Positions 36,131 to 60,410 of a stretch of 64,000 nt of DNA are shown one piece after another. The position numbers and the translations under genes are program-made. Source of the stretch: Oceanicola sp. (GTDB lineage Bacteria > Pseudomonadota > Alphaproteobacteria > Rhodobacterales > Rhodobacteraceae); NCBI GenBank assembly GCA_017792405.1, contig CP051231.1:908011-972010 (forward strand). Reading direction: 5' to 3'. A model generated the notes under the pieces. That model ran no database searches. It worked only from the letters and a program-made list of their open reading frames with translations, and was not told the origin of the DNA. The first letter of the stretch is position 1. The number at the start of each line of letters is the position of its first letter.

Positions 36131-36206
36131 GCCCCTATAGCTCAGCTGGTAGAGCAACTGATTTGTAATCAGTGGGTCGGGAGTTCGAGTCTCTCTGGGG
36201 GCACCA
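36131..36206 (+). tRNA. tRNA-Thr (anticodon TGT)
   Basis: A complete 76-nt cloverleaf with encoded CCA. The acceptor GCCCCTA pairs with TGGGGGC, the D-arm stem is GCTC/GAGC, the anticodon stem ACTGA/TCAGT encloses TTTGTAA (anticodon TGT at 36164-36166), and the T arm is GGGAG-TTCGAGT-CTCTC. It serves as the integration site. Its 3' part from 36159 recurs, with a different but paired T stem, at 60363-60410, so the present 3' half was probably supplied by the island. Confidence 0.96.
36159..36206. repeat. Left attachment site (attL) in tRNA-Thr
   Basis: A 48-nt stretch matching 60363-60410 at 42 positions. The first 20 nt (TGATTTGTAATCAGTGGGTC) are identical, as are the T-loop region and the acceptor 3' end with CCA. 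The six mismatches fall only in the two halves of the T stem. The strand exchange most likely occurred in the 20-nt core. Confidence 0.88.
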
Positions 36207-36721: not shown

Positions 36722-37923
36722 TGACCTGCTCCCCTTGGAGTCCGCGTTTATAGGTTAGCTCTGTTCAGGGTTTGGTCTTCTTTCGACCTTTGGTGATACT
36801 CCCACGGGGTGAGCCCGTCGAGGCTCGTGTGGGGTCGGTGATGGTTGTAGTCGTCTCACCACGCCGCGATCAGACTGCGGGCATGACGCAGGTTGGCGAA
36901 CAGATGCTCGTTGAGGCATTCGTCCCTGAGGCGGCCATTGAAGCTCTCGACAAAGCCGTTCTGCATCGGTTTCCCCGGCGCGATGTAGTGCCATTCGACC
37001 CGGCGATCCTCCTGCCATTTGAGGATGGCGTTCGAGGTCAGCTCGGTCCCGTTGTCGCTGACCAACATGCAGGGATGGCCTCTGACCTCGGCGATCCGAT
37101 CCAGCTCTCGGGCGACGCGGTGACCGGCGAGCGAGGTGTCGACGACCGTCGCCAGGCATTCGCGGCTGAAGTCGTCGATCACGCACAGGATCCGGAAGCG
37201 GCGGCCATCGCTCAGGCTGTCCGAGACGAAGTCCAGCGACCAGCGCTGGTTCGGCCCCTGCGGGATCGCCATCGGTGCCCTGGTCCCCAGCGCCCGCTTG
37301 CGACCGCCCCGTTTACGGACTGTTAAGCCTTCTTCCCGGTAGATCCGGTAAAGCTTCTTCCAGTTCAGCATCCAGCCCTCCCGCCGTAGCAGGATGTGCA
37401 AACGCCGATAGCCAAACCGCCGCCTCTCAGCGGACAGGTCCCGCAGCCGCTCGCGCAACTCCCGGTCCTCCGGCCTGGTCGGCTACCGCCGATACACGCG
37501 CGGGTCAATCCCGACCAGGGCACAGACCCGCCGCTGCGAATAGCTCTTCTCCTTCATGGCCCAGTCCACGGCACGCCGCCTCGAACCGGGCCTCAGAAGT
37601 TTTTTCCCAACATCTCCTTCAGCGTCGCTACATCGAGCATCTGTTCGGCCAGCATCTTCTTCAGCTTCGCGTTCTCGGCCTCCAGCGCCTTCAGCCGCCG
37701 GGCGTCCGACACCTCCATGCCGCCATATCTCGAGCGCCACTTGTAGAAGGTCGCATCGCTGATGCCATGCTTGCGGCACAGCTCCTTCGCGCCCAGCCCG
37801 GCCTGGTGCTCCTTCAGAATGCCAATGATCTGCTCTTCGCTGAACCGGCTTCTCTTCATCGTCTGTCTCCTCGCTTGGAGAACAGGCTAACCTCAAAACG
37901 AGGACTCCAAGGGGAGCAGGTCA
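36722..37923 (-). mobile_element. IS3-family insertion sequence, decayed, with perfect 22-bp terminal repeats
   Basis: A 1202-bp element. The left end starts TGACCTGCTCCCCTTGGAGT and the right end is its exact reverse complement over 22 bp (36722-36743 and 37902-37923). No target duplication is visible next to the ends. It interrupts a second IS3-family transposase gene at its right end. Both ORFs are on the minus strand. The perfect ends suggest recent movement even though the transposase carries stop codons. Confidence 0.85.
36748..37859 (-). pseudogene. IS3-family transposase orfA/orfB with in-frame stops
   Basis: orfA (37593-37859, 88 residues) is intact: MKRSRFSEEQIIGILKEHQ, a helix-turn-helix (KHGISDATFYKW) and a leucine-zipper stretch. 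orfB downstream has the DDE core ([38 protein letters not shown]). A TAG interrupts the linker between VYRR and PTRPED, and a TGA at 36856-36858 replaces the codon between SLIAAW and DDYNHHRPHTSLDGL, before the natural end at 36748. With two stops it is unlikely to make active transposase; the usual orfA-orfB frameshift is not the cause. Confidence 0.85.
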
Positions 37924-38560
37924 GGAGATAAATGTAAAGCGGGTCAGACGATTGTACAATCTCGAAGGTCTCCAGATGCGACTGAAACCGCCTCGGCGCC
38001 GCGTGATGGCGAAGCTCCGGAGCGATCGTAGCGATGCAACCAGGCCGAACCAGGTCTGGGCGACGGACTGGATGTTCGACGAGACTTTTGACGACCGACG
38101 GCTCTGGGTCCTGACCGTGATTGACACTTGGAGCAGAGTCTGCCCGGTGATGCGTGTCTGCCGATCGGCCAAGGCCATGGAGGTAATCAACGCCCTCGAA
38201 GAAGCTTGCGAGCACTACGGACGACCCAAGGCGATCAGGGTCGACCAAGGCAGCCAGTTCACCTCGAAGGAGCTCGATCTCTGGGCCTATAGCAACGGCG
38301 TGGTGCTGGACTTCAGCCGGCGCGGCAAGCCGGCGGACAATGCCTACGCCGAGAGCTACAACGCGATCGTCCGCATGGAATGCCTCGGGCAGCACTGGTT
38401 CCTGAGCCTCGAGGACGCCCGCGAAAAGGTCGAAACTTGGCGCCGCGAATACAACGAAGTGAGACCGCATGGCGCAATCGGTGACAGACCACCGAACGCC
38501 ATGCTACCTTGGCCCGGGACAGCCTTCCGGGCTGTTCAGCCGCTGGGAATCCTCACTTAG
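37924..38560 (+). pseudogene. IS3-family transposase orfB, 5'-truncated by the neighbouring IS
   Basis: A DDE transposase C-terminal part of about 210 residues. The frame is open from the inserted IS boundary (37924) through VRRLYNLEGLQMR into the catalytic core: ATDWMFDETF, IRVDQGSQFTSKE and NAYAESYNAIVRMECL with the final Glu, then YNEVRPHGAIGDRPP. The N-terminal part and any orfA are missing. It belongs to a different IS3 subgroup from the inserting element. IS tail sequence with GGACCACTTCATTGGGGCAG continues to about 38690. Confidence 0.82.
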
Positions 38561-38917
38561 GGTGGTCCAGGTTCCGGGGTGGAGCCACCGGCCCGAAAGG
38601 TCGCGTGAAGCCCGGACCAAAGACGGGGTGAAGTCCAGCCAGTCATGCACTACGATTGAAACCGGACCACTTCATTGGGGCAGGCCAGAGGGATGCTGGC
38701 TATCAGTGACGCCCGCACACTTCAGCACGTGTCACTTCACAGTAGGCTTCGTCGGCCGACCGGTTCCATTTATGCGACAGCCCACGGTGCGCCTCGCCTT
38801 CCAAGTCTCAGGAAAGTTTGGTGTTTTCTTAAACTTTATAAATGCTTATCGTTGATCCGGGAGCGCCTTGGCGCGGCGAGCATGATTGCATTTATGAAAG
38901 CGCGTCGGAGAAAAAGT
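38561..38917. other. IS3 tail and leader of the defence operon
   Basis: Up to about 38690 this is the non-coding end of the truncated IS3. From there the DNA becomes AT-richer (stretch around 38810-38860) and probably carries the promoter of the three-gene operon. No separate gene is supported. The open frame running through it into the ATPase gene starts inside IS-derived sequence and is not protein-like before about residue 80. Confidence 0.5.
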
Positions 38918-40768
38918 TTGTCAGAGAACAGAAATCCACACGTCTACCGAATGGCACGGTTCCTGCCGTTCGACCCCTCCCATGACCAAATCTACGAAGA
39001 GTATCAGGTCGCGAAAGACTCGCTCAATCTTGACACAATCGCATTTCACTACGTGCTTGATGCCGCCAAATCTGGTGCTCCTGTTGTCGTACTGACTGGT
39101 GATGCCGGCCACGGGAAGACACATCTTTGCCGTCGGGTGATTGAGAACTTTCTCGACTATGACGAAGATGAAGCAAGGAAGCTCATCAACGAGGCTTGCG
39201 ATGGCAGGCAGATAATCAAGGCAAAGGACGGCGCATCTGCAACTGCTGCCTTGCGCATCTTCAAAGACTTCTCCGAATTTGCGCCTGAGATCGCAGCCAG
39301 CCTCGTCGAAGCGTCGAACGGCGACGAGGCCGTAACCATCATCTGCGCCAACGAAGGTCGTCTCCGGGCGGTCCTCTCGTCCACCAAGGCCGGAGCCTAT
39401 TGCGCGGAACTGCTCAAGAGCTTCGAGTCAACCTTCGAAGATGGAAAGGCAAGCCGCGACGGACGTACACACGTCGTGAACCTCAACCATCAGTCCACCG
39501 CCGCGGGCGATGATGGGCAGTCTCTTGGGGACCGCGCCATTCGCGACTGGACCTCAGGCGTTAGATGGAGGAGTTGCAATGATTGCGACTCGCGCGACGC
39601 CTGCCCGATTAGCCGCAACCGGGAAATGCTGTCCGAGCGTGCCGGAGAGGAGGTTGCGGTGACAAGAAAGGAAAAGCTTCGCCTGTTGTTCGCAACGCTG
39701 GAGCGGATAGGCTACGTGATCACCATCCGCGACATGCTGATGGCCTTTGCCTATCTTCTGACGGGTGGTTTGAAGTGCGAGGACGTCCACCGGATGCGGC
39801 GCCGGCGCAAGAAGGGCTGGCAACAGGCCTACGCGTTTTACAATCTCGCCTTCGAGGCGCCGGAAACGCTCTCTCGGGAGCAACTGAAGCGCCTGCCTCT
39901 CATGCAGCAGCTCCCCAAACTCGATCCCGGACGGCGGGCAATTCGGGAGATCGACGAGCGCATCGTCAATCAGCAGGACATATTTGCTCACGGACAGCTG
40001 GACTTGCAGTTTCCTGCGCCTCCAACGTCATCAGAGGATCTGATCGATGCTGCGGATGGAATTGACGAGATCATTGGAGATCCGCGTAACAAGAAGCAGA
40101 GAGCGGACGAGGCCGAAAACGTCACGCGCGTCGTGAGGGCGCTCAGGCGTCGGGCCTACATCGACGGCATTGGCGGCGACGCCTTTGATATGGCCCATCT
40201 AGGGTTTCCCTACGGAACTGATTTCCTTGCGATCGTAAACGACAAGATGGATGTGCCGGAACGCACTCTTCTCAAGAAAAGAGTTATCGCCGGACTTCAC
40301 CATATTCAGGGGCTTCAGTTTTCGGAGCAGACACCCATTCTGCATCTCGTCGACCCTGCATTCGGAAGATCAATGTCGGGAACGGCAATCCTGGCCGCGA
40401 GGATCAAGCCGGCAAATGTCGACTTGATCAGGCTCTCTGAAAAGTGGGGAGCGAGCGTTGAAGTATCGCATCATGTAAAGGGCAGCGTCGACTGGATCGA
40501 CCGTCATGTGATCTTGAGGATCATCGATCAGCAGCGCGCGGCACATGACCTTCTGCTCGACCTGATGACCTTTGACTGCATTCTGAGGGCCGCGGCGGGC
40601 CATGTGCCCACCAAGTTCTACGAGCACGACATCCGGCGCGTGGCGAGCTTCCTTGGCCGGATCGCGCAGTCGACCCACTCAAACTCGGACCAGATCAATC
40701 TCATCAGAGACGGTCGGTCCCAGACCATTTCGATCGACGGCAGCACCATCCAGGTCGGCACAGCATAG
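38918..40768 (+). CDS. P-loop ATPase of a putative defence operon (DptF-like in size and position)
   Basis: The first gene of a three-gene operon, about 616 residues. I favour TTG 38918 (MSENRNPHVYRMARF), which has GGAG seven bases upstream; ATGs at 38882, 38894 and 38951 are alternatives. The Walker A is VLTGDAGHGKTHLCRR, followed by an acidic stretch and a Walker-B-like VTIICANEGRLR. A Cys cluster (CNDCDSRDACPISRN) could bind zinc. It then runs helical to the end. The order ATPase, mid-size protein, giant FtsK-type protein recalls dptF-dptG-dptH of phosphorothioation-linked restriction, but I cannot confirm homology by eye. It may power or license DNA cleavage by the operon. Base composition is lower in GC than the backbone. 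Confidence 0.75.
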   Translation: MSENRNPHVYRMARFLPFDPSHDQIYEEYQVAKDSLNLDTIAFHYVLDAAKSGAPVVVLTGDAGHGKTHLCRRVIENFLDYDEDEARKLINEACDGRQIIKAKDGASATAALRIFKDFSEFAPEIAASLVEASNGDEAVTIICANEGRLRAVLSSTKAGAYCAELLKSFESTFEDGKASRDGRTHVVNLNHQSTAAGDDGQSLGDRAIRDWTSGVRWRSCNDCDSRDACPISRNREMLSERAGEEVAVTRKEKLRLLFATLERIGYVITIRDMLMAFAYLLTGGLKCEDVHRMRRRRKKGWQQAYAFYNLAFEAPETLSREQLKRLPLMQQLPKLDPGRRAIREIDERIVNQQDIFAHGQLDLQFPAPPTSSEDLIDAADGIDEIIGDPRNKKQRADEAENVTRVVRALRRRAYIDGIGGDAFDMAHLGFPYGTDFLAIVNDKMDVPERTLLKKRVIAGLHHIQGLQFSEQTPILHLVDPAFGRSMSGTAILAARIKPANVDLIRLSEKWGASVEVSHHVKGSVDWIDRHVILRIIDQQRAAHDLLLDLMTFDCILRAAAGHVPTKFYEHDIRRVASFLGRIAQSTHSNSDQINLIRDGRSQTISIDGSTIQVGTA

Positions 40769-40787
40769 AAGAGGAATACGCCTGACA

Positions 40788-42080
40788 ATGCAGGATGTAT
40801 CGGTAGACAACATCTTGAAGGGTCCCGAGGTTTCCCGAGAGCTGTTCGGGGGGGTCTTGGATTTCGACGCCGCGGGACACTATCCGGGCCTTGAGTTGTT
40901 GAACTTCGTATACTGTGGTGAGGGCGAAGAACCGCTCCCCGCCGGCGATACCGTGAAGATCAAACGTCGGTCGCACGATTTCGGAAGACGTCTGGTCTGG
41001 GACGGCAGCTTCAAGGATGATCCGCGGCGACACAGCGTGCTCCTCGACGACACGGCCGCGGAGGAGACTCTGCGCGAACTGCTCCGCTGTCTTCAGCTGG
41101 ATATTCCCAACGGAACCAAGGAACCCAAGTGGTCGAGGGCACACTTCTTTCCATACACGCCGTCGCTTATTCACTGGGATGCACGGGAGAGATACGGGGA
41201 CATCCGCCTGGAGCGCCTCTACCTGCGTGGAGGAGGAGCTCTGGCTTTCAAGATTCTCAGGTCTGATCCGAACGCGACGCGACTTGAGCGAATTAGGTAC
41301 GGCTTCAAGAAGCTTTACGGAGCGACTGCGGGGAGCCCCCTGGAAATCCTGGGTGACTTCATCAATGGGCAGAGCAAGGCAGACACTCAAGCTGGCCTCG
41401 ATGAAATTGAGAAGGCCACACGCGCGAACGTGGATGACTTCGAGGAGGTCTACAGAAACGGCATTCTGAACATCCTAGAGCAGAAGGATGCTACCTCAGT
41501 CGCGAAGATAAGAGCAGTGATGGGCTGGACAGCGTTCTGGCTTGTCCTCATGCAAAACCGGCGCGCGAGAAAGAGCCTTGGTCTCGATGAAAGTCCGATT
41601 ATCTGCGACTGCGGTGCCGGCAGTCCACAGCTGAGGAGAGTATCCCAACGCTGTTTGCAGGAGGTCCTCGGCAACATTGTGAACGCGGTTGCAAAGCTTG
41701 AGCCAAAGATCCCGAATGCCCAGCGGATCAAGATCCGTAGCTTTTTCTGGGCGACCGCCGCTGCAAATGGGTTTTTGAATGCCTGGCGAGGGCGAAAGCA
41801 CTTCACGCTTTCGGTCGATGCCCTCGAGATGATCGTATTGGCGACGATTCCGACAGGAACGGAGATGGCTTTTGAAAGGTTCGCGACAGAAGTTCTTTAC
41901 GACTGCCTCGGCGTTGCGGTTGGTCGGGGCGCCGCGGAAGCCTCGGGCCTAGTTAATTCCATCGACGCCAGTATCTTCGAGGAAAACGAGGCACAGTTGG
42001 CTCTACAGATGATCGCTGCCGGGTTGGTGACCCAATATTCAGATGCAACGCGAATGGTCAGCCCAAAGTCGGCCTCGTAA
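40788..42080 (+). CDS. Unknown protein, second gene of the putative defence operon
   Basis: A 430-residue protein. The start ATG 40788 (MQDVSVDNILKGPEVSREL) has GAGGAA about 12 bases upstream, 19 bases past the ATPase stop. It has no Walker motif, signal peptide or membrane helix. Recognisable local features are a Cys pair in SPIICDCGAGSPQLRRV, a basic segment (NRRARKSLG) and a helical C-terminal third with ALEMIVLATIPTGTEMAFE. I do not recognise the family. Its place between an ATPase and an FtsK-like motor, and its size, match DptG in a dptFGH operon; an adaptor or nuclease-associated subunit is the likely role. Confidence 0.72.
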   Translation: MQDVSVDNILKGPEVSRELFGGVLDFDAAGHYPGLELLNFVYCGEGEEPLPAGDTVKIKRRSHDFGRRLVWDGSFKDDPRRHSVLLDDTAAEETLRELLRCLQLDIPNGTKEPKWSRAHFFPYTPSLIHWDARERYGDIRLERLYLRGGGALAFKILRSDPNATRLERIRYGFKKLYGATAGSPLEILGDFINGQSKADTQAGLDEIEKATRANVDDFEEVYRNGILNILEQKDATSVAKIRAVMGWTAFWLVLMQNRRARKSLGLDESPIICDCGAGSPQLRRVSQRCLQEVLGNIVNAVAKLEPKIPNAQRIKIRSFFWATAAANGFLNAWRGRKHFTLSVDALEMIVLATIPTGTEMAFERFATEVLYDCLGVAVGRGAAEASGLVNSIDASIFEENEAQLALQMIAAGLVTQYSDATRMVSPKSAS

Positions 42081-42092
42081 TCGGACTTCAAG

Positions 42093-45000
42093 ATGAGTGA
42101 CATTGAAAAGATACTCGCCGGCACGGCTTTCGAGATTGTTGCACGAAGCTTCTCGTCGGATGAAGACTCTGACCGCAACTCCTTCAGGTTGAAGAACCTC
42201 ACCAGAGGCGAGGCTCTTGAGTTCCTTCGCACATGGCAAGAGCAGAGCGACAGCCGCGGTCTGGAGCGCGTTCGACTTCTCGTCGCCAGCGACTCACATG
42301 AGGACTTCCCAAGTGAGTTCAGGGCCGACCCCGACCACTCCATTACATATTATCGAAACAACAATGAACACGGCCTCGTCTACATCGAGACGAAAGTAGA
42401 GAGCGACGAACAGGGCCTGAAGAACCTTTTTACCCTTCGAGACGTGAACTTTCTTGACTGCACGTTCGACGAGGATGGAGAGTTCCTGGTTCCCGAGGAG
42501 ATGGTCAGACAGGCGCTACGCGTCGCTGGTTCCACCAATCCTCAGGGCAACGAGCTCCTGCGCGACCGCCTCGTAGAGGTTCTCCGAGAGCTGAACGCCG
42601 CGGACATGACTGTGCCCGTAAGAAAGTTTGCCGGCTTCGTATCGGCGGCGGCGCATAAGGTGGTTTCCGGCTCCGCTGTCTACTCGCCCGAGGAAACAAA
42701 CACCCTCGTCGGCAGGTGCCTTGTCCATCTCGACATGTTCCCCGACGAACACTGGCGGCAAAGTGCCGGCCGCGTTTCGCGGCGCCTCTCTCTGAACCTT
42801 TTGAGGTCAGAGCTTGCCGCATCGCCGTCGTCCGATCTCGATGCTGAGAAGACCGCGCAGGACTGCGCGCGAACCAAGTTCGTAGATGAGCAGGGTGAAG
42901 CCTACGAGCCCGATGTGCAGGTCCATTGGCGTGAGGAATGTTCCTCATATTGCCTCGCTCCCTCCCGACAGAGACGAGAGGGGATCCCCTATCGGATCTT
43001 CGAACAGGTCTTCAGCAAGGACGTGAAAGGCCTGCCTCTCGGACAGCGCGTGGCTGAAGAAACTATGGACAGCGCGCCGTCGAGAAAACCTGAATTCGAC
43101 GAGCTTGCCGTGGAGACCGGCTTGAACAACCGATCGGGAGACGACGCCCGCAAGTTTCTCGAGAGCGAGCCAGCGGATGTCAGTCTGCTCCCGTTGAAGG
43201 ATCTGCTGTCCAAGCAGACGCTTCGAATGGTCGAGAGACTTGCCGCGCCCGCCGTCGAGAGAGTCGAGAACCCCTTGATAAAGCTATCGAAGGTTGCAGG
43301 AGATTTCCGAGAAAGGAACGTTTTTGAGGATGGCGATTACAGGATCGAGCTACGGATCGGCGCGGGTGCCGGCGATCAACATGCCCCAACCATCGGGCTT
43401 TTTGCTTTCCTCTACGGTCGATCTCTACTCGAAATCAGGAACTCGCTAGCAGATGGGATTGGATCGGTATCCCTCGATATCGATGATCGCCTGACCAGGC
43501 AAAGCCCTGTCCCCCCGCTCAAGAAAGAAATCGATCCTGACGCGGAGACCTCGGATGCCGCGTCATCGGAGGAGGACGAGGGCACGGTCTGGCTGCCTGT
43601 TCCGCTAGAGTTTGTTCTCGTGAATGCAGAAGATGGGACCGAGATTGACAGCGAGGTGTCGGTCGAATGGTTGCCGGAGGATCTGGCCTACCTTGCACTT
43701 TTCTGGATTTCAGTCTGCGGGGAGGACAGAGGTGAGGTCACCGCTGAGCTGCACGCTCCCTCGAACAGGAATGGCGAGGCTTGGATTGAAGAAGTTGCCC
43801 ATCGCGTCCTGCCCTTTGAGAACGGTATGGCGCGTCCACTTCGAGAGGAGGTCCTCCAGCATCCAATCATAAACCGGTTGGTGGAGATCAGATTAGGGTT
43901 CAGGAATGAGGCCGGGAAAGATGGTCTTTCCTCTGAGTTGCTGAACAACGTGTTTGATCAGTGGTCGGCGCTGCTCGCAGAGGCTCGCAGAGCCTTTACC
44001 CCGGACGGTGACAACCCGACCGGCATGATAGAGTTTCTGAACGCTGATTGCGTGCAGGGTTTCGACGGTGACCGCGTGCTCATGCTTCAGTCGCATCCTC
44101 TGAAGCTCAGGTGGATCGCGGCCTATCTTGCGAAGTCGACCCAGCTTGTGGCGGATGCGATCGAAGGCACCCTGCGTCTGAACGAGCAGAATGAGGCGCT
44201 ATATCTGAATTGGATCCAAGGACTTTCGCCGCATCAGCAGCCCTCGATCCACACGGCTGCTGACGGACATATCCTCTTTGCGGACGGCGAACGGGGGTGG
44301 ACGGAGAACTTTCAGAGAGCGGCCTCGTCTGGTGGTACGGCGTCTGGGGACCGGATTCATTCCAGTCTCGTGGCTGAAATTGTCCGTCAGATAACAGCAT
44401 ACCTGCATGCCCATCCCTACAAGGCTGACGGTCTGAGAATCCTTGTTGTCACTGGTGGAGCAAGCGCTCTTCCAGCGGACATCGTCCAAGGCGTACGGAA
44501 AGGTGAATTCAAGAACCTTGCGATGACGATAGAATTCGTCGCGCCGAAGAGTTGCTGGGACGAAGCCGCTCGCCAGTTTGAACTTGTGGATACCGACAAC
44601 CGGCTCTCGGGGGATGGAGCGTTGTTTCCACCTGTTCAGCTCAACCTTCATGACCTCGAGAAGGTCAAGGAAGACGCCAACGAGGCACTCGGGCACCTTG
44701 TCTTCGACCTTTCGATTGTCCCACAGTTTCTCGACGACAACGTCAGTACAGATGTGAAGACCGAAGACGAGTCATCGTCACTTGGGAAGTTCGATCCTCT
44801 CCTGGACGATCCCACGTACATCGCTTCTGGAGCCGGAGCTTCGGCTTTGTGGGTGTCGCTGAGACCAAAGATGTCCGACATGGCGCTGTCGGACTGGTCG
44901 ACCCTGGTGGTCCGGCATGAACGTCGAAATCCAGTTGCCGCGGATCGCCCGGAGGCAACCGACTTCATCGATATTCGGATCAATTTCCACAACACGGCAC

Positions 45001-47225
45001 GCTTCTTCGGGGCGCTGCACAAGCGCTCGCACTGGGTGATCACAGTTGAGCGTCACATAACCAGAGAGCAGATTGAGCGGCTCGAAACTCGTCCCGAGGT
45101 GCTCTCATTGCGTGATGGGGTCGGACCGGGTGGCCTGTTCACGCTGATCGTCTCATCCAACGCCGGCAAGCAGTTCATAATCGATCGCCTGACCAGGAAA
45201 CTGAAGCGAATTGCCACTCTGATCGGGAGACAGGAGCTTGCGCAGCAGCAGGCTCAGCAGCTTGCGCAGAAGATCTACGACGAGGCGAGGCAGATATTGC
45301 CTAGGCTGACCCTGGACGCGCTCGGGATTTCTCGCGTAACCGAGGAAATCCTAGGACTGAGCATAGCCCGGCGAATCGCCGACCGTCAGTTCTCGGCCTC
45401 TGTGAAAGACGGCTTCATCGCTTGGATCTCGCTCGATGAGTATCCGGAATGGTTCGTATCGGCGAATTCGATGCGGGCGGACATGATCAGGCTGGCGGTT
45501 AGCCTTGAGGATGAAGGTCTTTCGGTCGATCTGCTCGTCCTCGAAAGCAAATTGAGAAGGTCCGGATATGAGGCGCACGGGGCAGAACAGGTGCGCAAGA
45601 CCCTGCAAATGTTCAATGCGATCTTCCCACAGGAACCAGAACTGGATTCCATGGACGGTGAGCTATGGAGGGACACACTTCTTTCGGCAGTCGACACCGT
45701 CAGCGAGGATGCAGTTTTCATTCCGCTCGACAAGACATCCGGGCAAATGCCGCGGCGCTCAAGGGTGTCAGAGGAAATCAGAAGTCTCTTCCGGAAGGGT
45801 GACTTTGCCTATGTGAAGGTTGCGGGGCTGTATTCGATTTGCGAGTACTCGCACCCTCGAGAGATGACGATCGAGGCATACGACGCTGACCCCCGCGTTC
45901 AGATCGTCCAGACCGGAGGGAGTGCCCTGCTTGATCGGCCGACCGATCGGTTGGTTCTCAAACCGGCTGCAACGGGAGATGGATCTGAACCTGAGAAAGA
46001 TACTGAAGAACGGCAATCGGGACCCACCGATACGGGTGATGAAGTGTTGGCTCCGCCTGATGTTCCGCCGCCTCCAATGCCCCCTTCAAACGATGAAACC
46101 GTTGATGCGGAAGTGGCCACGGATCAACCCGTGACCAAGGCCAAAGATATTGACCTCGGCAGCGGCCGTGGCCATCTGGGCAAGGCAGAGCTTGATCACA
46201 GGTATCAGATAATCCTCGATACGTTCGGCCAGTACGGTATCAGCGTTAACAAGACCGAACAGGGTATCCAGCACGCCATCGAAGGTCCGGCATCGATCCT
46301 GTTCCGGGTTCTGCCGGGAAGAGGCGTTGAACCGAAGAAGCTGATTGAGAAAAGCGACGCGCTGAAACTTGCGCTCAAGCTGAATGCGTCTCAGGAGATC
46401 CGCTTCGCTATCGACGAAGGTTACATGACGATCGATGTCCCGAAGCTGGATCGAGACAGATACTTCGTCGAAGCTGCCGATCTCTGGTCTCGCTGGAAAC
46501 GCCCGGAGTATGGGCTCAAGGTTCCTTTGGGCGAGGATCGCTTTGGAAGAGTGGTTGAAATTGACTTTACCTCATCGAACTCGCCGCATCTGCTCATTGG
46601 CGGCACCACCGGAAGTGGCAAATCCGAAGCCCTGAACACAATCCTTGCCGGGATGACCCTGCACTATTCCCCCGAGGAGGTCCGACTTCAGCTTATCGAT
46701 CCGAAGGGCACGGAGCTCCAGCACCTCTCGGACTCGGAGCATGTTGACGGTGAGATCGGCTGGGATGAGGAGGACGCAATCAAGATCCTCTCCCGTGCCG
46801 TGGACGAAATGCAGGCACGCTATTCCAGATTCAAGAGCTCGAAAGTCAGATCACTTGGTGACTACAACGCCCAGGCACCAGAAGATGAACGGATACCAAG
46901 GTGGGTCATTGTACTTGACGAATATGCGGACCTAACGTCGGAGCCTGATGCGAAAAAAACGATCGAAGCCCATCTGAGACGTTTGGCTCAGAAAGCCCGT
47001 GCAGCTGGAATTCACGTTGTTATCGCAACTCAGAAGCCGGACGCTTCCGTTATCAGTACCAACTTGAGGTCCAACCTTCCTGCGCAGCTTGCTTTACGCG
47101 TCAAAAGTTCCACCGAGAGCCGAGTCATAATGGATGATCCAGGAGCAGAGTCCCTGACCGGAAAGGGTGATGCGTTCTTCAAAGAGAGCGGAGTGTTGAC
47201 CCGCGTTCAGTGCGCCAAGATCTAA
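42093..47225 (+). CDS. Giant FtsK/SpoIIIE-domain DNA translocase, third gene of the putative defence operon (DptH-like)
   Basis: A 1710-residue protein starting at ATG 42093, 12 bases after the previous stop. The first 1450 residues are unassigned, mostly charged alpha/beta sequence, with a helical Gln-rich part (AQQQAQQLAQKIYDEARQI) near 1055 and an acidic Pro-rich linker (LAPPDVPPPPMPPSNDE) near 1320. The last 250 residues are an FtsK/SpoIIIE motor: LLIGGTTGSGKSEALN (Walker A, about 1503-1512), LQLIDPKGTEL, WVIVLDEYADL (Walker B, about 1604), IHVVIATQKPDASVI, and a final GKGDAFF loop. There is no transmembrane region, unlike cell-division FtsK, so it probably moves on or senses incoming DNA in the cytoplasm. 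It ends 15 bases from the convergent methyltransferase gene. Confidence 0.85.
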   Translation: MSDIEKILAGTAFEIVARSFSSDEDSDRNSFRLKNLTRGEALEFLRTWQEQSDSRGLERVRLLVASDSHEDFPSEFRADPDHSITYYRNNNEHGLVYIETKVESDEQGLKNLFTLRDVNFLDCTFDEDGEFLVPEEMVRQALRVAGSTNPQGNELLRDRLVEVLRELNAADMTVPVRKFAGFVSAAAHKVVSGSAVYSPEETNTLVGRCLVHLDMFPDEHWRQSAGRVSRRLSLNLLRSELAASPSSDLDAEKTAQDCARTKFVDEQGEAYEPDVQVHWREECSSYCLAPSRQRREGIPYRIFEQVFSKDVKGLPLGQRVAEETMDSAPSRKPEFDELAVETGLNNRSGDDARKFLESEPADVSLLPLKDLLSKQTLRMVERLAAPAVERVENPLIKLSKVAGDFRERNVFEDGDYRIELRIGAGAGDQHAPTIGLFAFLYGRSLLEIRNSLADGIGSVSLDIDDRLTRQSPVPPLKKEIDPDAETSDAASSEEDEGTVWLPVPLEFVLVNAEDGTEIDSEVSVEWLPEDLAYLALFWISVCGEDRGEVTAELHAPSNRNGEAWIEEVAHRVLPFENGMARPLREEVLQHPIINRLVEIRLGFRNEAGKDGLSSELLNNVFDQWSALLAEARRAFTPDGDNPTGMIEFLNADCVQGFDGDRVLMLQSHPLKLRWIAAYLAKSTQLVADAIEGTLRLNEQNEALYLNWIQGLSPHQQPSIHTAADGHILFADGERGWTENFQRAASSGGTASGDRIHSSLVAEIVRQITAYLHAHPYKADGLRILVVTGGASALPADIVQGVRKGEFKNLAMTIEFVAPKSCWDEAARQFELVDTDNRLSGDGALFPPVQLNLHDLEKVKEDANEALGHLVFDLSIVPQFLDDNVSTDVKTEDESSSLGKFDPLLDDPTYIASGAGASALWVSLRPKMSDMALSDWSTLVVRHERRNPVAADRPEATDFIDIRINFHNTARFFGALHKRSHWVITVERHITREQIERLETRPEVLSLRDGVGPGGLFTLIVSSNAGKQFIIDRLTRKLKRIATLIGRQELAQQQAQQLAQKIYDEARQILPRLTLDALGISRVTEEILGLSIARRIADRQFSASVKDGFIAWISLDEYPEWFVSANSMRADMIRLAVSLEDEGLSVDLLVLESKLRRSGYEAHGAEQVRKTLQMFNAIFPQEPELDSMDGELWRDTLLSAVDTVSEDAVFIPLDKTSGQMPRRSRVSEEIRSLFRKGDFAYVKVAGLYSICEYSHPREMTIEAYDADPRVQIVQTGGSALLDRPTDRLVLKPAATGDGSEPEKDTEERQSGPTDTGDEVLAPPDVPPPPMPPSNDETVDAEVATDQPVTKAKDIDLGSGRGHLGKAELDHRYQIILDTFGQYGISVNKTEQGIQHAIEGPASILFRVLPGRGVEPKKLIEKSDALKLALKLNASQEIRFAIDEGYMTIDVPKLDRDRYFVEAADLWSRWKRPEYGLKVPLGEDRFGRVVEIDFTSSNSPHLLIGGTTGSGKSEALNTILAGMTLHYSPEEVRLQLIDPKGTELQHLSDSEHVDGEIGWDEEDAIKILSRAVDEMQARYSRFKSSKVRSLGDYNAQAPEDERIPRWVIVLDEYADLTSEPDAKKTIEAHLRRLAQKARAAGIHVVIATQKPDASVISTNLRSNLPAQLALRVKSSTESRVIMDDPGAESLTGKGDAFFKESGVLTRVQCAKI

Positions 47226-47240
47226 CTCGGCAGCCAATCT

Positions 47241-48773
47241 TCAAATAAGAACGGATCTCAAAAAAATTGCAATCTGGCGAGCGAGATAGGGCGGCACGGC
47301 GTTTCCGACCTGGACGTATTGCTGGGTCCGGTTACCCATGAACAGGTAGTCGTCGGGGAAGGTCTGCAGTCGTGCTGCTTCACGCACTGTCAGGCTGCGG
47401 CACTGCATCGGATCGGGATGGATGAAGTAGTGACCGTCTTTCGAGATGTGGCTCGTAATGGTAGTCGAGGTCTTCTGGGCCAGCTGGACCCGGAAGCGGT
47501 CATTAAACACACCGCTGTGCCAATTGCGATGATCCGGGGTCAGCGCGAGCGGAAAATCTGCGGCTTTTGGGCTGTGGCCGTGAACCGCCCCGAACACGGA
47601 GGCGAAGAGGTAGCGGCCAAGATCAGAGGCCATATGTCCCCGTGTCTCGTGCTGAGCGATTGCGCGTAGTTCCGAACGCTCTAGCCAATTCAGAAGTTCG
47701 TCGTTCGAATTGCCGTAGGTCTCATAAAGTCGCGTTTCAGTCCGACTTCTCGGAGCCTCCGTCGCCATGCGCCGTGCTACCGAACTGAATGCCTCGCGGA
47801 GGGAGTGATTATCTTTCCCGGCATGAATGCGCGCCAGCAGTCGCGCAGCATCAACAACCTTCTTACGCCACTCCGCTGCGCTGTCCGGCGCGCGGCTTAT
47901 GCCGCTACGCAAGGAAGGCATCGTGCCAATGACGTCGTCGACGGTTCGCGATGGGCTTGAAACAGCTATATCGACACTTGCCGCCTTTCCAGCCAGATCA
48001 GACCTGATCCCCACGATAATCACCCGGTGACGCCGCTGCGGAACCCCGAAGTCCTCGGCCCGTACGATGAAGTCAGAAGGTCGCGCAGCCTCCTGCAGGC
48101 TGGCCTGCCCACCTTCGACCCGGATGGCACGCAGTTCGTACTTATGGCCATGGCCCTTCCCGAAGGATGACAGATCCTCCATCAGCATCTCGAATACCAG
48201 TCGGCTCTCGACCGTCGAGGACAACATGCCCTTGACGTTCTCCATCACGAAGGCTGCCGGCCGGAGCTTGTCGAGCACCCTGATGTACTCGCGGAACAGG
48301 TAGTGCCGCTCATCCTCCTCAGGCACATAGCCGACCTTGCCCTTCGAGCGGGCCCGACCCACGAGGGAGTAGGCCTGACAAGGCGGGCCGCCGATCAGGA
48401 TCGTATCGTCGTACCTAGCCTTGAGTCTGTCGATGGCGGCGTCAATTGCGTCCGCGGCTGTCTCGGTTCCGAGCTCGAGGGCACGTGCTTCTTCGATAGC
48501 GACTCGCCACGCGTCGTCGTCAACTTCTGACCAGTCTGGTTCAGGAGCGTCTCCCGCATGGAAATCGATGAACTGCCGAGGCAAGGCGCCGTGCCGCGAC
48601 CGATACTCGCGAAGGAATGCACGCAGCGTCAGTGTCCGGTGAGCCGATGCCTCCTTCTCGACTGAGATGCCGATCCGGAACGGCGCGTGGCCATCCTCGA
48701 CAAGGGATGCAAACCCCTCGCCAAGTCCGCCGGGGCCGGCGAACAGATCGACGATGCCGAAAGTCGAAGGCAA
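47241..48773 (-). CDS. DNA (cytosine-5-)-methyltransferase
   Basis: A 510-residue C5 methyltransferase. The start is TTG 48773 (MPSTFGIVDLFAG), supported by AGGAG six bases upstream. The conserved motifs are in order: I DLFAGPGGLGEGF, IV GGPPCQAYS with the catalytic Cys, VI MENVKGML, VIII GVPQRRHRVIIVG, then a target-recognition region of about 200 residues, IX REAARLQTFPDDY and X QVGNAVPPYLARQIA. The large insertion before motif IV (VEDGHAPFR to DRLKARYDD) is longer than in small Dcm enzymes. It converges on the FtsK-like gene and is divergent from vsr across 67 bases, so it is the modification arm of a restriction or defence unit. Target specificity cannot be read. Confidence 0.94.
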   Translation of the reverse strand: MPSTFGIVDLFAGPGGLGEGFASLVEDGHAPFRIGISVEKEASAHRTLTLRAFLREYRSRHGALPRQFIDFHAGDAPEPDWSEVDDDAWRVAIEEARALELGTETAADAIDAAIDRLKARYDDTILIGGPPCQAYSLVGRARSKGKVGYVPEEDERHYLFREYIRVLDKLRPAAFVMENVKGMLSSTVESRLVFEMLMEDLSSFGKGHGHKYELRAIRVEGGQASLQEAARPSDFIVRAEDFGVPQRRHRVIIVGIRSDLAGKAASVDIAVSSPSRTVDDVIGTMPSLRSGISRAPDSAAEWRKKVVDAARLLARIHAGKDNHSLREAFSSVARRMATEAPRSRTETRLYETYGNSNDELLNWLERSELRAIAQHETRGHMASDLGRYLFASVFGAVHGHSPKAADFPLALTPDHRNWHSGVFNDRFRVQLAQKTSTTITSHISKDGHYFIHPDPMQCRSLTVREAARLQTFPDDYLFMGNRTQQYVQVGNAVPPYLARQIAIFLRSVLI

Positions 48774-48840: not shown

Positions 48841-49314
48841 GTGGCAGATATCGTGGATCAGCAGACCCGATCCCGCATGATGGCAGGGATCAGAGGAAAG
48901 AACACGAAGCCCGAGCTTGCGCTTAGGCGAGCGTTGCACGCGCGCGGCTTCCGCTTCCGGCTCCATTCCAAGAACGTTTGTGGGCGACCGGACCTCGTTT
49001 TCCCAAAGTATCGCGCCGTCGTCTTCGTACATGGCTGTTTCTGGCATCGTCACGAGGGGTGCCGCTACACCACCACACCATCGACCCGCCAAGAGTTCTG
49101 GCGGGCCAAGTTCACCGCAAATGTCGCTCGGGACGCATCTGTTCGCGGGAAGCTTCTGAAAGACGGCTGGCGCGTTGCAACGGTGTGGGAGTGCGCGCTC
49201 AGGAAACCGGATCAGGTGAACGCCACCACCGACCTCTTCTCAACGTGGCTGCGGTCGAACGAGCTTCAGCTCCAGATTGGCGATGAGGATAGCCGCACCA
49301 ATCTAGAAACCTGA
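48841..49314 (+). CDS. vsr: Very short patch repair endonuclease (Vsr)
   Basis: A 157-residue mismatch endonuclease that nicks next to T:G mismatches produced by deamination of 5-methylcytosine. The start is GTG 48841 (MADIVDQQTRSRMMAGI). Family marks are RMMAGIRGKNTKPELALR, GRPDLVFPKYRAVVFVHGCFWH with the catalytic Asp and metal residues, HRHEGC and VWECALR. The His and Cys residues that hold its zinc are present. It is divergent from the methyltransferase gene, the normal partnership, and protects against mutations caused by that enzyme. Confidence 0.93.
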   Translation: MADIVDQQTRSRMMAGIRGKNTKPELALRRALHARGFRFRLHSKNVCGRPDLVFPKYRAVVFVHGCFWHRHEGCRYTTTPSTRQEFWRAKFTANVARDASVRGKLLKDGWRVATVWECALRKPDQVNATTDLFSTWLRSNELQLQIGDEDSRTNLET

Positions 49315-49432: not shown

Positions 49433-50386
49433 TTGGCGTATCAATGGCATGAGCGGTTGCGGAGTGACGATTTGCTAAACCCGATCGACGATATGGGCCG
49501 GGAGCTCGATGCGAAATTCACGCTGGAGAAGTTGCCGGACGGATTTGCCCTGACAGTGGAGTCCCGGGGCGGGTCAGACCATGGCCCAAACCGGAGTCGG
49601 AACAAGAACTACATCGACGGGATACTTCTGCACCTGAAACGCATGGCGGAGCATGACATGCGCCTCGATGAAATCCAGGTGGCCAGCGCGCAGGCACTAC
49701 GTCTGCCAGAGTCTGAGCGCGTCGTCTGGCCGGACGGATACCCGCGGCCACTTAAAATGGCCGGTGTCAGCGATTTCAGCGATCTTCGCCTTGCAATAGG
49801 GCGACAGTCCGCGGCGTTTCAGAACACGTCGAACTCCACCGGCAACAACAGCAAGAGAATGAAGCTGATTGTGCGTTCGTCAGAGACGGCCGCCATGACA
49901 ATGGATCAGTTGGAAGCGATCTTTACGGGACGCAGCGGCGCGTCGGTCTGGACGGAAGCCCCAACGTCAGATGAGGAAAAGCTCCGTGAGCGTGTGGCCA
50001 ACGCGCGCCGAGCGGCAAGACGTTCGTCCGCGAAGGGCAAGAAACCTCCTAATGGACAGAACGACGTCAAGCGGGTGAGTAGCTCATTGGAACGCTTTGT
50101 CCGGGACCCGAACGTAATCGCGTGGGTGCTTGAACAGGCCGCTGGATCCTGTGAGGCCTGCAGTGAGAAAGCCCCTTTCCAGCGCGAAGACGGTGAACCG
50201 TATCTGGAGGTCCACCATGTGCGCCCGCTGGCAGAGGGCGGGCCAGACACTGTCGATAACGCGGTTGCCTGCTGCCCGAACTGTCATCGACTCCTGCATC
50301 ACGGCTCAGGACAGGAAAAGCTCAGGCAATCCCTGCTCGAGCGCCTCGGTCGCCTGAAGGACTGGCCGCAAAAGCCCATGGCCTAG
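49433..50386 (+). CDS. HNH endonuclease (McrA-like), putative restriction nuclease
   Basis: A 317-residue protein with a TTG start at 49433 (MAYQWHERLRSDDLLNP); the ribosome site is weak. The N-terminal 230 residues hold an unassigned, probably DNA-recognition region with a basic stretch (NARRAARRSSAKGKKPP). The last 80 residues are a zinc-stabilised HNH nuclease: CEACSEKAPF, LEVHHVRPLAEGGPDTVDN, CCPNCHRLLHHG. The layout fits McrA-like or type II HNH restriction enzymes. It follows vsr on the same strand after 118 bases, so with the C5 methyltransferase and Vsr it may form a complete restriction-modification unit, or it may be an additional effector of the neighbouring operon. Confidence 0.82.
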   Translation: MAYQWHERLRSDDLLNPIDDMGRELDAKFTLEKLPDGFALTVESRGGSDHGPNRSRNKNYIDGILLHLKRMAEHDMRLDEIQVASAQALRLPESERVVWPDGYPRPLKMAGVSDFSDLRLAIGRQSAAFQNTSNSTGNNSKRMKLIVRSSETAAMTMDQLEAIFTGRSGASVWTEAPTSDEEKLRERVANARRAARRSSAKGKKPPNGQNDVKRVSSSLERFVRDPNVIAWVLEQAAGSCEACSEKAPFQREDGEPYLEVHHVRPLAEGGPDTVDNAVACCPNCHRLLHHGSGQEKLRQSLLERLGRLKDWPQKPMA

Positions 50387-51188: not shown

Positions 51189-52040
51189 CAAACGGTTTTC
51201 ACGCCGACCGGAAGGCGTGATTCAAGCTGGTATCTGCGATGGAGACCAGCTCGGCACGAGACCTTATGTTGGAAGAGGAGTGGGCCTTCTTTGAGCCCTT
51301 CATCCTGGCCGTCCGCGCGCCGAACGGACGCAAACCCGCCAATCACCGCCGCGTTCTGGATGAAATTTTCTGGATCGCCCGGACCGGGGCTCCGTGGCGC
51401 GACCTGCCCTCAGAGTTTGGCAAATGGTCCAGCGTCTACCGGCAGTTTCGACGCTGGACGCTGGCCGGACTCTGGGAGGACTCTGGGAGGATATCATGGA
51501 GCCGCTAAATCGCAGCAGCGCTGTGCCGGACGCGCTTCAGATGATCGATACCACAGTGATCCGCACTCACCATCAGGCAGCAGGCTCATAAGGGGGACTC
51601 CGCGATAGGGTCTCGGCCGTTCTAATGGTGATTTCACGACCAGGATCCACCTCCTCGTCAGCGCGCATGGCCCGCCCATGAGAACCGAGATCACGCCGGG
51701 CCAGACGTCCGACTACGGCGCCTTCGATCTGGTGATGGCCAACAACCTGCCCGCCCCGAGCGTCTTGCTCGCCGACCGGGGCTATGATGCGGATCACATC
51801 CGGACAAATGTCGAACATCGCAATGCTCTACCCGTGATCCCCATGCGGAAATCCCGCAAGATGTGGGTTGGCGTCGACCGGTCTCTCTACAGAGTGCGCA
51901 ATTTGGTCGAGCGCTGCTTCAACAAGCCGAAGAATGCCCGCCGAGTCGCAACCCGATACGACAGGACCGCAAAAAGCTTCTTGGGCTTCATCGACATTAC
52001 GTCGATCCGCCTCTGGCTACGCCATTTGTCGACATGACCT
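51178..52040 (+). mobile_element. IS5-family (IS427-like) insertion sequence, decayed
   Basis: An 863-bp element. The left terminal repeat GGCCGTGTTGACAAACG (51178-51194) matches the right end at 52024-52040 in reverse complement with four differences. A TA dinucleotide flanks both ends and is the likely target duplication. The transposase is broken. It inserted into the small gene at 50916. Confidence 0.82.
51239..52037 (+). pseudogene. IS5-family transposase, disrupted by an 11-bp tandem duplication and a stop
   Basis: The N-terminal part (EEEWAFFEPFILAVRAPNGR, FWIARTGAPWRDLP) is in one frame. ACTCTGGGAGG is duplicated in tandem at 51469-51490; removing one copy restores LAGLWEDIMEPLNRSSAVPD into the DDE part (MIDTTVIRTHHQAAG). 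A TAA after QAAGS and local changes then break the frame again before MRTEITPGQTSDYGAF, LLADRGYDADHIR and the final VERCFNKPKNARRVATRYD. The product would be split, so it is not functional. Confidence 0.85.
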
Positions 52041-58993: not shown

Positions 58994-60223
58994 CTACGAC
59001 TCTGGATACTTTTCCCTTCGAGCAGAACCTGAATAGAGGCGCATCGCCGAGGCGATGTCTTGTCCGATCACCTGCGCCGCATACCTCAAGGGATCGTCGG
59101 ACAAGTGCGCATACCGTGCTGTCGTTGCAGTCTCTCGATGTCCGAGTAGTGCGCCAATCACTGGTAGCGACATGCCAGCCCGGGCGCCGATGCTGGCAAA
59201 GGAGTGCCTCAGGTCGTGCAGCCGCACGTCTTCGAGCCCGGCTGCTTTTCTGATCGCGATCCAACTGTCCTTGACGTTTACCAGGTGCGCACCCGGCTTG
59301 CGCCCGACGATGACGTACGGATTGCCATCTTCCCTTGTGAGATCCTTCAGAATCTGAAGCGCAGCGGGCGGTAGATGGATATCGCGCATGCCGGTTTTGC
59401 TGTCCTCCAATTCCAGGCACCCGCGGTCGAAGTTCACGTCCTCCCAGCGCAGTTGAAGGATTTCGCTACAACGAGCACCCGAGAAGACCAGCAGTCTGAA
59501 GAACGCGGTGACATGCGGAGAATAGTGCCGACTCAGATCTCCGGCGTCGGCCTTGGCCAGAGCCTCCCCGAGGCGCGCGAGTTCGGCTTGCGAAAGATAG
59601 CGCCGCCGTTTCTCTTCCTTGAACCGTCGGATTCCCTTGACCGGATGGTCCCCGCGAGCCACCCACTCCAGATCATCGCAAGCGAAGCTGAAGATCTTCG
59701 ACAGGAGTGCCAGATTGCGATTGGCCTCGTAGGGTTTGTTCTCGAGGCCCGCATGAAACGACCGAATCTGCTGGCGCGTGATTGCATGAACGCGCTGCCG
59801 CCCGAAAGCAGGGCGCAGCCGGTTCTCGATCATTCGGATGTCGTTGCGCAGGCTGGCAGGCTTTTTATGCCGCGCGGCATGATCCGCAAGGTATCGATCG
59901 AAGAGCTGTGCCATCGTCGGTGCGTCGCGATGCGCGCGCCGCTCGGCGAAAGGATCACCACCGTGCCGTACCTGGGCCGCCCAATCTCGCGCGATTTCCC
60001 GGGCCTCCGTCGGAGTGATCTCGCCGAGATCTCCGATCCGAGGCTCCCTGATCTGCGCACCGCGTCCGCCGCCGACACGATAACGATAAAAGAAGGCTTT
60101 TCGTCCGTTCGGATAGACCCGAAGGGAGAAGCCAGGGATCTCGGTGTCACGAACCGCGTGGGGCTTTTCTCCGGCTTCGGTCTTGTCAGCGACCGATTTG
60201 GTCAGTTTGGCTTTCAGGGGCAT
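58994..60223 (-). CDS. int: Tyrosine recombinase (phage/island integrase)
   Basis: A 409-residue integrase of the P4-like type. The start is ATG 60223 (MPLKAKLTK), with GGAAG six bases upstream; a GTG at 60235 is also in frame. The N-terminal DUF4102-like arm-binding domain (DTEIPGFSLRVYPNGRKAFFYRY) is followed by a core-binding SAM-like domain (MAQLFDRYLADHAARHK). The catalytic domain has all residues: Arg in FSGARCSEILQLRW, Lys in LEDSKTGM, HDLRHSFASIG, LGHRETATTARYAHLSDD with the nucleophilic Tyr. It abuts the right attachment site by about 140 bases and should catalyse integration into tRNA-Thr. Confidence 0.96.
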   Translation of the reverse strand: MPLKAKLTKSVADKTEAGEKPHAVRDTEIPGFSLRVYPNGRKAFFYRYRVGGGRGAQIREPRIGDLGEITPTEAREIARDWAAQVRHGGDPFAERRAHRDAPTMAQLFDRYLADHAARHKKPASLRNDIRMIENRLRPAFGRQRVHAITRQQIRSFHAGLENKPYEANRNLALLSKIFSFACDDLEWVARGDHPVKGIRRFKEEKRRRYLSQAELARLGEALAKADAGDLSRHYSPHVTAFFRLLVFSGARCSEILQLRWEDVNFDRGCLELEDSKTGMRDIHLPPAALQILKDLTREDGNPYVIVGRKPGAHLVNVKDSWIAIRKAAGLEDVRLHDLRHSFASIGARAGMSLPVIGALLGHRETATTARYAHLSDDPLRYAAQVIGQDIASAMRLYSGSARREKYPES

Positions 60224-60267
60224 CGTGGCTTCCACACAGCTTTCACCTAAGCCGATACTATACGAAG

Positions 60268-60362: not shown

Positions 60363-60410
60363 TGATTTGTAATCAGTGGGTCCGCGGTTCGAGTCCGTGT
60401 GGGGGCACCA
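60363..60410. repeat. Right attachment site (attR), displaced 3' end of tRNA-Thr
   Basis: A 48-nt copy of the tRNA-Thr 3' part starting in the anticodon arm and ending with GGGGGCACCA. Its T arm reads CGCGG-TTCGAGT-CCGTG, different from the active gene but still self-complementary. This is expected for the original host 3' half pushed away by integration. Confidence 0.88.

Follow-up and report, generated by a model that had tools for sequence, protein, structure and literature searches.

The 64,000-nucleotide stretch of the Oceanicola sp. genome analysed here (the window) carries three adjacent genes, F, G and H, homologous to sspF, sspG and sspH, next to a gene for a C5-cytosine DNA methyltransferase. 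By profile comparison, the trio is a distant branch of SspFGH, which is its nearest family, rather than of DptFGH. Because the cytosine methylase adjoins the trio instead of sulphur-mark genes, the self-mark of this system is probably an ordinary methyl group, and the adjacent enzyme its probable maker. We estimate a probability of about 73% that the locus encodes a restriction–modification system in which an SspFGH-type complex is combined with C5-cytosine methylation, replacing phosphorothioation as the self-mark.

F (616 aa, 38918–40768, TTG start), G (430 aa, 40788–42080, ATG at 40788) and H (1710 aa, 42093–47225, ATG at 42093) run in the same direction on the forward strand, separated by gaps of 19 and 12 bases; an ORF check returned the frames, sizes and gaps as claimed in a preliminary description of this DNA. 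The longest ORFs of F and G open at 38675 and 40602. H stands tail-to-tail with the methyltransferase gene (510 aa, 47241–48773, reverse strand), 15 bases away, and beyond it lie forward-strand genes for a Vsr endonuclease (48841–49314) and, beside Vsr, an HNH endonuclease (49433–50386), which PADLOC labels Type IV methyl-directed (6.5e-33), an odd label next to a methyltransferase.

The defence genes are inside an island of ~24 kb at a tRNA-Thr gene. The tRNA (36131–36206, forward strand; ARAGORN) marks the left end of the island and an 88% identical repeat of its last 48 bases (60363–60410, forward strand) the right end. The island integrase is a phage-type protein of 413 aa (58994–60235, reverse strand; PF00589, 84.9 bits against a cut-off of 27.1), and transposase genes or fragments of the integrase-core and DDE types (36755–38560 and 51239–52037) flank the defence genes within the island. 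In the sister genome G002, the DNA after the same tRNA gave no match to the window island at 1e-10, and the sequence to the right of its own tRNA repeat corresponds to the right flank of the window (94.6% over 3638 bases). Sister genomes G002 and G005 (L157–L159) carry a second, partial tRNA-Thr copy ~28 kb and 8.5 kb downstream, so the site looks like an integration hotspot with other DNA.

PADLOC names all three proteins, F as SspF (4.2e-42), G as SspG (6.4e-12) and H as SspH (4.6e-90), the longest ORFs of F and G being used in the scan, which agrees with the earlier view of the trio as a candidate defence system. When clade profiles were compared with those of ordinary SspF, SspG and SspH using hhalign, probabilities were 100, 99 and 100 over 523, 394 and 1587 columns; F itself is only ~19–24% identical to ordinary SspF. 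The preliminary description had likened the trio to dptFGH. The gene order and sizes behind that likeness are real, and the modelled fold of G agrees with it, but the sequences and profiles do not. No NCBIfam dnd_assoc model matched F, G or H at E ≤ 1, by which we rejected an identity as DptF, DptG or DptH, and TIGR03238 had no match in the window's own genome. Nor did the clade profiles match the DndFGH proteins of the single comparator locus (L167; 530, 434 and 1712 aa, found with the dnd_assoc_3 model), reaching at most 28% (H to DndH) against single sequences on the Dnd side.

G had no Pfam match above cut-off, and its profile had no match in the PDB. Its AlphaFold2 model (pLDDT 91) aligned over the whole length with the solved DndG structure 7exx in VIA-align (Z 15.2, rmsd 6.1, 332 residues), the next chain scoring Z 3.6; a Foldseek search with G returned nothing significant and did not list DndG. 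G is mostly helical, and the tool warns that helical models reach high Z by chance, so the match to DndG rests on its length, its margin and the fitting identity of the protein found. Judged from its model, G shares the DndG fold, a deeper fold relation than that seen in the sequences.

In F, residues 61–68 make up an intact Walker A motif (GDAGHGKT), and there is a cysteine cluster (C220, C223 and C229-P230), invariant in all 43 aligned window-clade F proteins among the best 80 of 224 relatives; these are the P-loop and the Cys cluster of the ATPase noted earlier. Of 30 ordinary SspF proteins, 29, 26 and 30 retain the respective cysteines, and the best PDB match of the F profile was pachytene checkpoint protein 2 (E 0.0054).

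The only Pfam match above cut-off among the trio proteins is the FtsK/SpoIIIE motor of H (residues 1468–1649; 46494–47039, forward strand; 123.5 bits against a cut-off of 24), confirming that this 1710-aa protein ends in such a motor, the residues of which are intact; the H profile also retrieved FtsK translocases from the PDB (8e-73). Upstream of the motor, residues D1130, E1151-x-K1153 and Q1166 are invariant in 44 of 44 clade SspH proteins (best 80 of 224 relatives) and in 27 of 27 ordinary ones. We take this pattern to be that of a PD-(D/E)XK nuclease, with a predicted core at residues 1128–1166 (45474–45590, forward strand), and predict H to be a nuclease joined to an FtsK-type translocase. 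A structural model of residues 860–1260 (pLDDT 75) gave no significant Foldseek match, and its VIA-align scores (Z 4.3–6.6) are graded middling by the tool: the first 165 residues are weakly SAM methyltransferase-like (Z up to 6.6, 82 residues), and the remainder weakly matches HamA (Z 5.2) and PaqCI (Z 4.3). Given this weak fold match, H perhaps mirrors the order inactive methyltransferase–nuclease–HerA/FtsK described for DndH in the available text of PMC10853773.

The gene adjoining H is a C5 methyltransferase, as the preliminary description had held (PF00145, 157.3 bits against a cut-off of 22); its nearest PADLOC model is DrmMII (1.1e-84). The Vsr gene, which that description did not mention, was identified by TIGR00632 (143.1 bits against a cut-off of 97.85). 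We tested 41 methyltransferases, the window's own and one from each linked locus among the best 80 of 224 relatives; all 41 match PF00145, and the catalytic Cys column and ENV motif are invariant throughout.

To survey gene neighbourhoods, we used an SspF alignment headed by the window's F on 84,980 species genomes, which yielded 224 confirmed relatives, the best 80 of which were analysed. We classed a locus as window-like if its F matched over the full length at 28% identity or more (44 loci: L058–L099, L102 and L133), three partial loci (L100, L101 and L103) having been set aside beforehand. The other 33 SspF loci (L104–L132 and L134–L137) match at 22–31% in the best segment, most of them over part of F. 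Among these best 80 of 224 relatives, and with profiles built from the same loci and run in six frames, 40 of the 44 window-like loci proved to have a C5 methyltransferase no more than 3 kb from the trio, against none of the 33 others; for Vsr the counts were 29 and none, respectively. That such trios travel with C5 methyltransferases, a point raised by the preliminary description, is thus borne out within this sample. SspB, SspC or SspD, sought like the drm genes among non-overlapping ORFs with single reference sequences, occurred in none of the 44 window-like loci but in 28 of the 33 others, all three together in 17 (again among the best 80 of 224). The 44 loci span four phyla (Pseudomonadota, Verrucomicrobiota, Thermodesulfobacteriota and Actinomycetota), and about a quarter of the survey rows are Streptomyces. 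Two loci, L097 and L098, are copies from one assembly, and without L098 the C5 count becomes 39 of 43; a Fisher p of 1e-17 for the linkage takes no account of kinship, and we base no claim on it.

The four loci lacking a nearby C5 gene fall into two pairs. In L067 and L074 the contig starts ~0.5 and 0.2 kb ahead of F; the L067 genome also has, close to the terminus of a different contig, a 57% relative of the methyltransferases linked to the trio in L069 and L071. The two Nocardia loci (L084 and L088) have none within their 10-kb flanks and one each elsewhere, of another subfamily. The weakest of the 40 linked enzymes (L064; 88 bits, 333 aa, 1.2 kb away) passes PF00145. The flanks of the three partial loci contain no clear C5 methyltransferase, L103 having a 35-bit fragment; there is one elsewhere in the genome of L101 and none in that of L100. 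The actinomycete loci L077, L078 and L080 each have two C5 methyltransferases near the trio. Vsr is absent from the examined flanks of 15 of the 44 window-like loci; together with the two Nocardia loci and the weak fold matches of the nuclease region of H, this counts against the reading we prefer. Since Vsr repairs T:G mismatches that arise from deaminated 5mC, its presence in the other 29 fits real 5mC in the hosts.

Searches with single queries found few relatives. G alone matched none of 397 other genomes of the phylum, F gave one remote match (G537) besides its own genome among 385 genomes of the class, and whole H, in 147 genomes, had a full-length match only in its own, the rest being essentially FtsK-motor matches. 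Plasmid searches gave remote matches only, with F in six records and H residues 1–1390 in one. The SspF family model matched 12 of the 397 other genomes, including ordinary SspF loci and NERD-kinase fusions. In L052 (4819–15850) and L053, SspF-like NTPase domains are C-terminal in proteins of ~1300–1400 aa that resemble NERD-kinase fusions, and in L052 an SspH-like giant lies downstream of the fusion. In L050 (8906–19898), the first gene of another multi-gene cluster, one with no SspH match, encodes an SspF-like NTPase of 643 aa.

In a 77-row tree of F, the 44 window-clade rows (40 C5-labelled) form one group with support 99 and 30 ordinary rows (28 SspB/C/D-labelled) another with support 100, while three very long unlabelled rows (L110, L113 and L115) join the window side; the tree, which includes the window and omits L098, was built rapidly, has long branches and carries no bootstraps. 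With unlabelled rows left out, one change separates the two marks.

The nearest methyltransferases of the 40 linked loci occur in three layouts, 9 downstream and tail-to-tail, 12 upstream in the same direction and 19 upstream and divergent, with the methyltransferase frame of L063 overlapping the longest F frame by 8 bases. They form nine single-linkage clusters at 45% identity. The three layouts and several unrelated subfamilies indicate that the C5 link has been kept through rearrangement and replacement. Between L087 and L091, for example, F is 91% identical and the methyltransferases 28%, and of the 140 locus pairs whose F proteins share 75% identity or more, 67 have methyltransferases that are <45% identical or aligned over <200 residues. 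Comparison of identities within and between methyltransferase types revealed no clear segment in any of the three proteins that varies together with the type; the strongest dip, at H 576–600 (L087 numbering), has identities of 0.90 and 0.95 within types and 0.74 between them, and the between-type pairs there are also more distant overall. Divergent methyltransferases beside near-identical F-G-H, with no co-changing recognition block, are odd for a site-specific pair and count against the reading we prefer. Two readings fit: the swapped enzymes have a common target, or F-G-H is less strict in reading methylation than classical restriction enzymes are. As a tentative suggestion that we would not press, F-G-H might read 5mC in general, by its presence or density, which would leave unrelated methyltransferases swappable, and the C5- and phosphorothioate-linked clades might be one machine whose mark has changed.

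The computed homology, the conserved catalytic residues, the linkage to C5 methyltransferases and the absence of SspB, SspC and SspD at the loci are the observations from which we propose the following scheme. The adjacent methyltransferase would methylate cytosines of the host DNA, and Vsr would repair T:G mismatches after 5mC deamination. F, an NTPase, G, DndG-like and presumed to bind DNA, and H, with its FtsK motor and putative PD-(D/E)XK nuclease, would form a complex that engages DNA, translocates and breaks DNA without methylation. Four points of the scheme are inferred: 5mC would restrain F-G-H, H would cut, F would gate the reaction with ATP, and phage or other incoming DNA would be the target. 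According to the available text of PMC8092258, Vibrio SspFGH without SspBCD impairs growth and damages DNA, and SspBCD relieves these effects; on the strength of homology, the window's F-G-H would be expected to attack unmarked DNA. The central proposal of the preliminary description, that cytosine methylation may serve as the self-mark, is supported by the neighbourhood data, and we still infer it from sequence.

The methyltransferase and Vsr could also belong, with the HNH endonuclease beside Vsr, to a separate Type II-like system, leaving the trio to stand alone and sense nucleotides or DNA ends. The wider distribution of the methyltransferase–Vsr pair gives this some substance. In Shinella sp. 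PSBB067, an 85% identical methyltransferase with Vsr adjoins DISARM-type genes (encoding DrmA, DrmB and a NERD-UvrD protein), again tail-to-tail as in the window, and F has no match in that record. In Yoonia sediminilitoris (L060, 1–12245), partial DrmA, DrmB, NERD-UvrD, an 81% identical methyltransferase, Vsr and F are side by side, in a stretch that ends before G and H are complete; there, DISARM-type genes and F flank one methyltransferase–Vsr pair, as if two modules shared a mark. On an Agrobacterium plasmid (pDG3-1d; L056, 11457–20914), a 52% relative of the methyltransferase and Vsr lie beside MzaB-E, with AbiE-type genes adjacent. These are other neighbours of the same METHYLTRANSFERASE, the methyltransferase–Vsr pair thus standing beside at least three different restriction modules, and its occurrence with DISARM-type and Mza genes indicates that the pair moves on its own. 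DndFGH has moreover been argued to act stand-alone, without a modification partner (PMC10853773, available text), a precedent for a stand-alone trio that counts against our preferred reading. Set against this, a search of the ORFs at the 80 loci gave the HNH protein just two relatives, both weak (L060, 35 bits; L067, 30 bits), whereas the C5 gene accompanies 40 of the 44 trios and none of the 33 ordinary SspF loci, and unrelated enzymes refill its slot, so that we consider a stand-alone trio unlikely.

Retention of the methyltransferase would fit equally well if 5mC were an activating signal, F-G-H being licensed by the methylated host mark much as SspE of the Ssp system works via phosphorothioate (PMC8092258, available text). 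The same source describes the homologous SspFGH as toxic without its mark, which is the opposite behaviour, and makes an activating role of 5mC quite improbable in our view.

It is very improbable that the system still uses phosphorothioation with its genes elsewhere and the methyltransferase as a bystander, as might be supposed from the fact that the characterised SspFGH systems in the available text of PMC8092258 all use phosphorothioate, given that the window's genome (one contig, 4.31 Mb) has a single PAPS_reduct match, located in a CysH-like ORF whose neighbour is sulphite-reductase-like, that the DndC model has no match in it, and that SspB, SspC and SspD occur at 0 of 44 related loci (at the loci themselves, best 80 of 224). 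The names CysH-like and sulphite-reductase-like are our reading of the sequences. DndC and SspD are the sulphur-transfer enzymes of Dnd and Ssp (PMC8092258, available text), and the PAPS_reduct and DndC searches of the window's genome showed no gene of either type. Neither dndBCDE nor sspBCD was found among the window proteins scanned, and the sspBCD part of SspABCD-SspFGH phosphorothioation defence is thus missing from both the window proteins and the genome-wide PAPS_reduct search. The preliminary description was right that dndBCDE are lacking among these window proteins; its statement that there are no ssp genes holds for sspBCD only, since the trio itself is sspFGH-like.

A restriction–modification system of the kind we favour would share features with several known ones. 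SspABCD-SspFGH of Vibrio anguillarum FF-93 (PMC8092258, available text) has the same three-gene order and aligns with the window trio in full-length profiles, and ordinary Ssp loci share the Walker A of F, the FtsK-like C-terminus of H and the D/E-x-K/Q residues. The window-type loci differ in having no SspBCD and, in their place, a C5 methyltransferase, often with Vsr. DndFGH/DptFGH resemble the trio in order, sizes, the FtsK motor of H and the alignment of the G model with DndG, but not in sequence or profile, and the window lacks their dndBCDE partners. DISARM and Mza share the methyltransferase type and Vsr but pair them with restriction modules of another kind, unrelated to F-G-H. DrmB-type proteins contain the MZB domain (PF09369), which had no match in the window's genome, and no Drm helicase was present among the window proteins scanned, by which DISARM was rejected. 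The CxC ABC-ATPase/DndE systems (PMC10853773, available text) follow the same idea, with cytosine methylases where phosphorothioation genes would be; unlike the window trio, their core consists of an ABC ATPase, DndE and an HKD nuclease. In the available text of that paper, cytosine methylases go with CxC-DndE and are not connected with DndFGH, and neither SspF nor SspFGH occurs as a string.

Within the open-licence PMC literature, as distinct from subscription papers, most preprints and supplements, we found no description of SspFGH or DndFGH with a cytosine methyltransferase partner. The Vibrio study sought sspFGH only beside sspBCD (PMC8092258, available text), so that a clade like that of the window would be missed. 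SspFGH itself is already known; what appears to be new is an SspFGH-type machine with a cytosine methyltransferase replacing the phosphorothioation genes. The SspF, SspG and SspH annotation calls for the window and a Streptomyces member, which reflect individual models rather than PADLOC system rules, may cause loci of this kind to be catalogued under phosphorothioation.

This type of trio has so far been tied to sulphur marks, and here, as in dozens of distant bacteria, it stands beside a cytosine methylase. If our reading is right, evolution would have joined a single restriction machine to two self-marks of unrelated chemistry, a sulphur in the DNA backbone and a methyl group on cytosine, and whether these complexes need a mark could be tested with ordinary methyltransferases.
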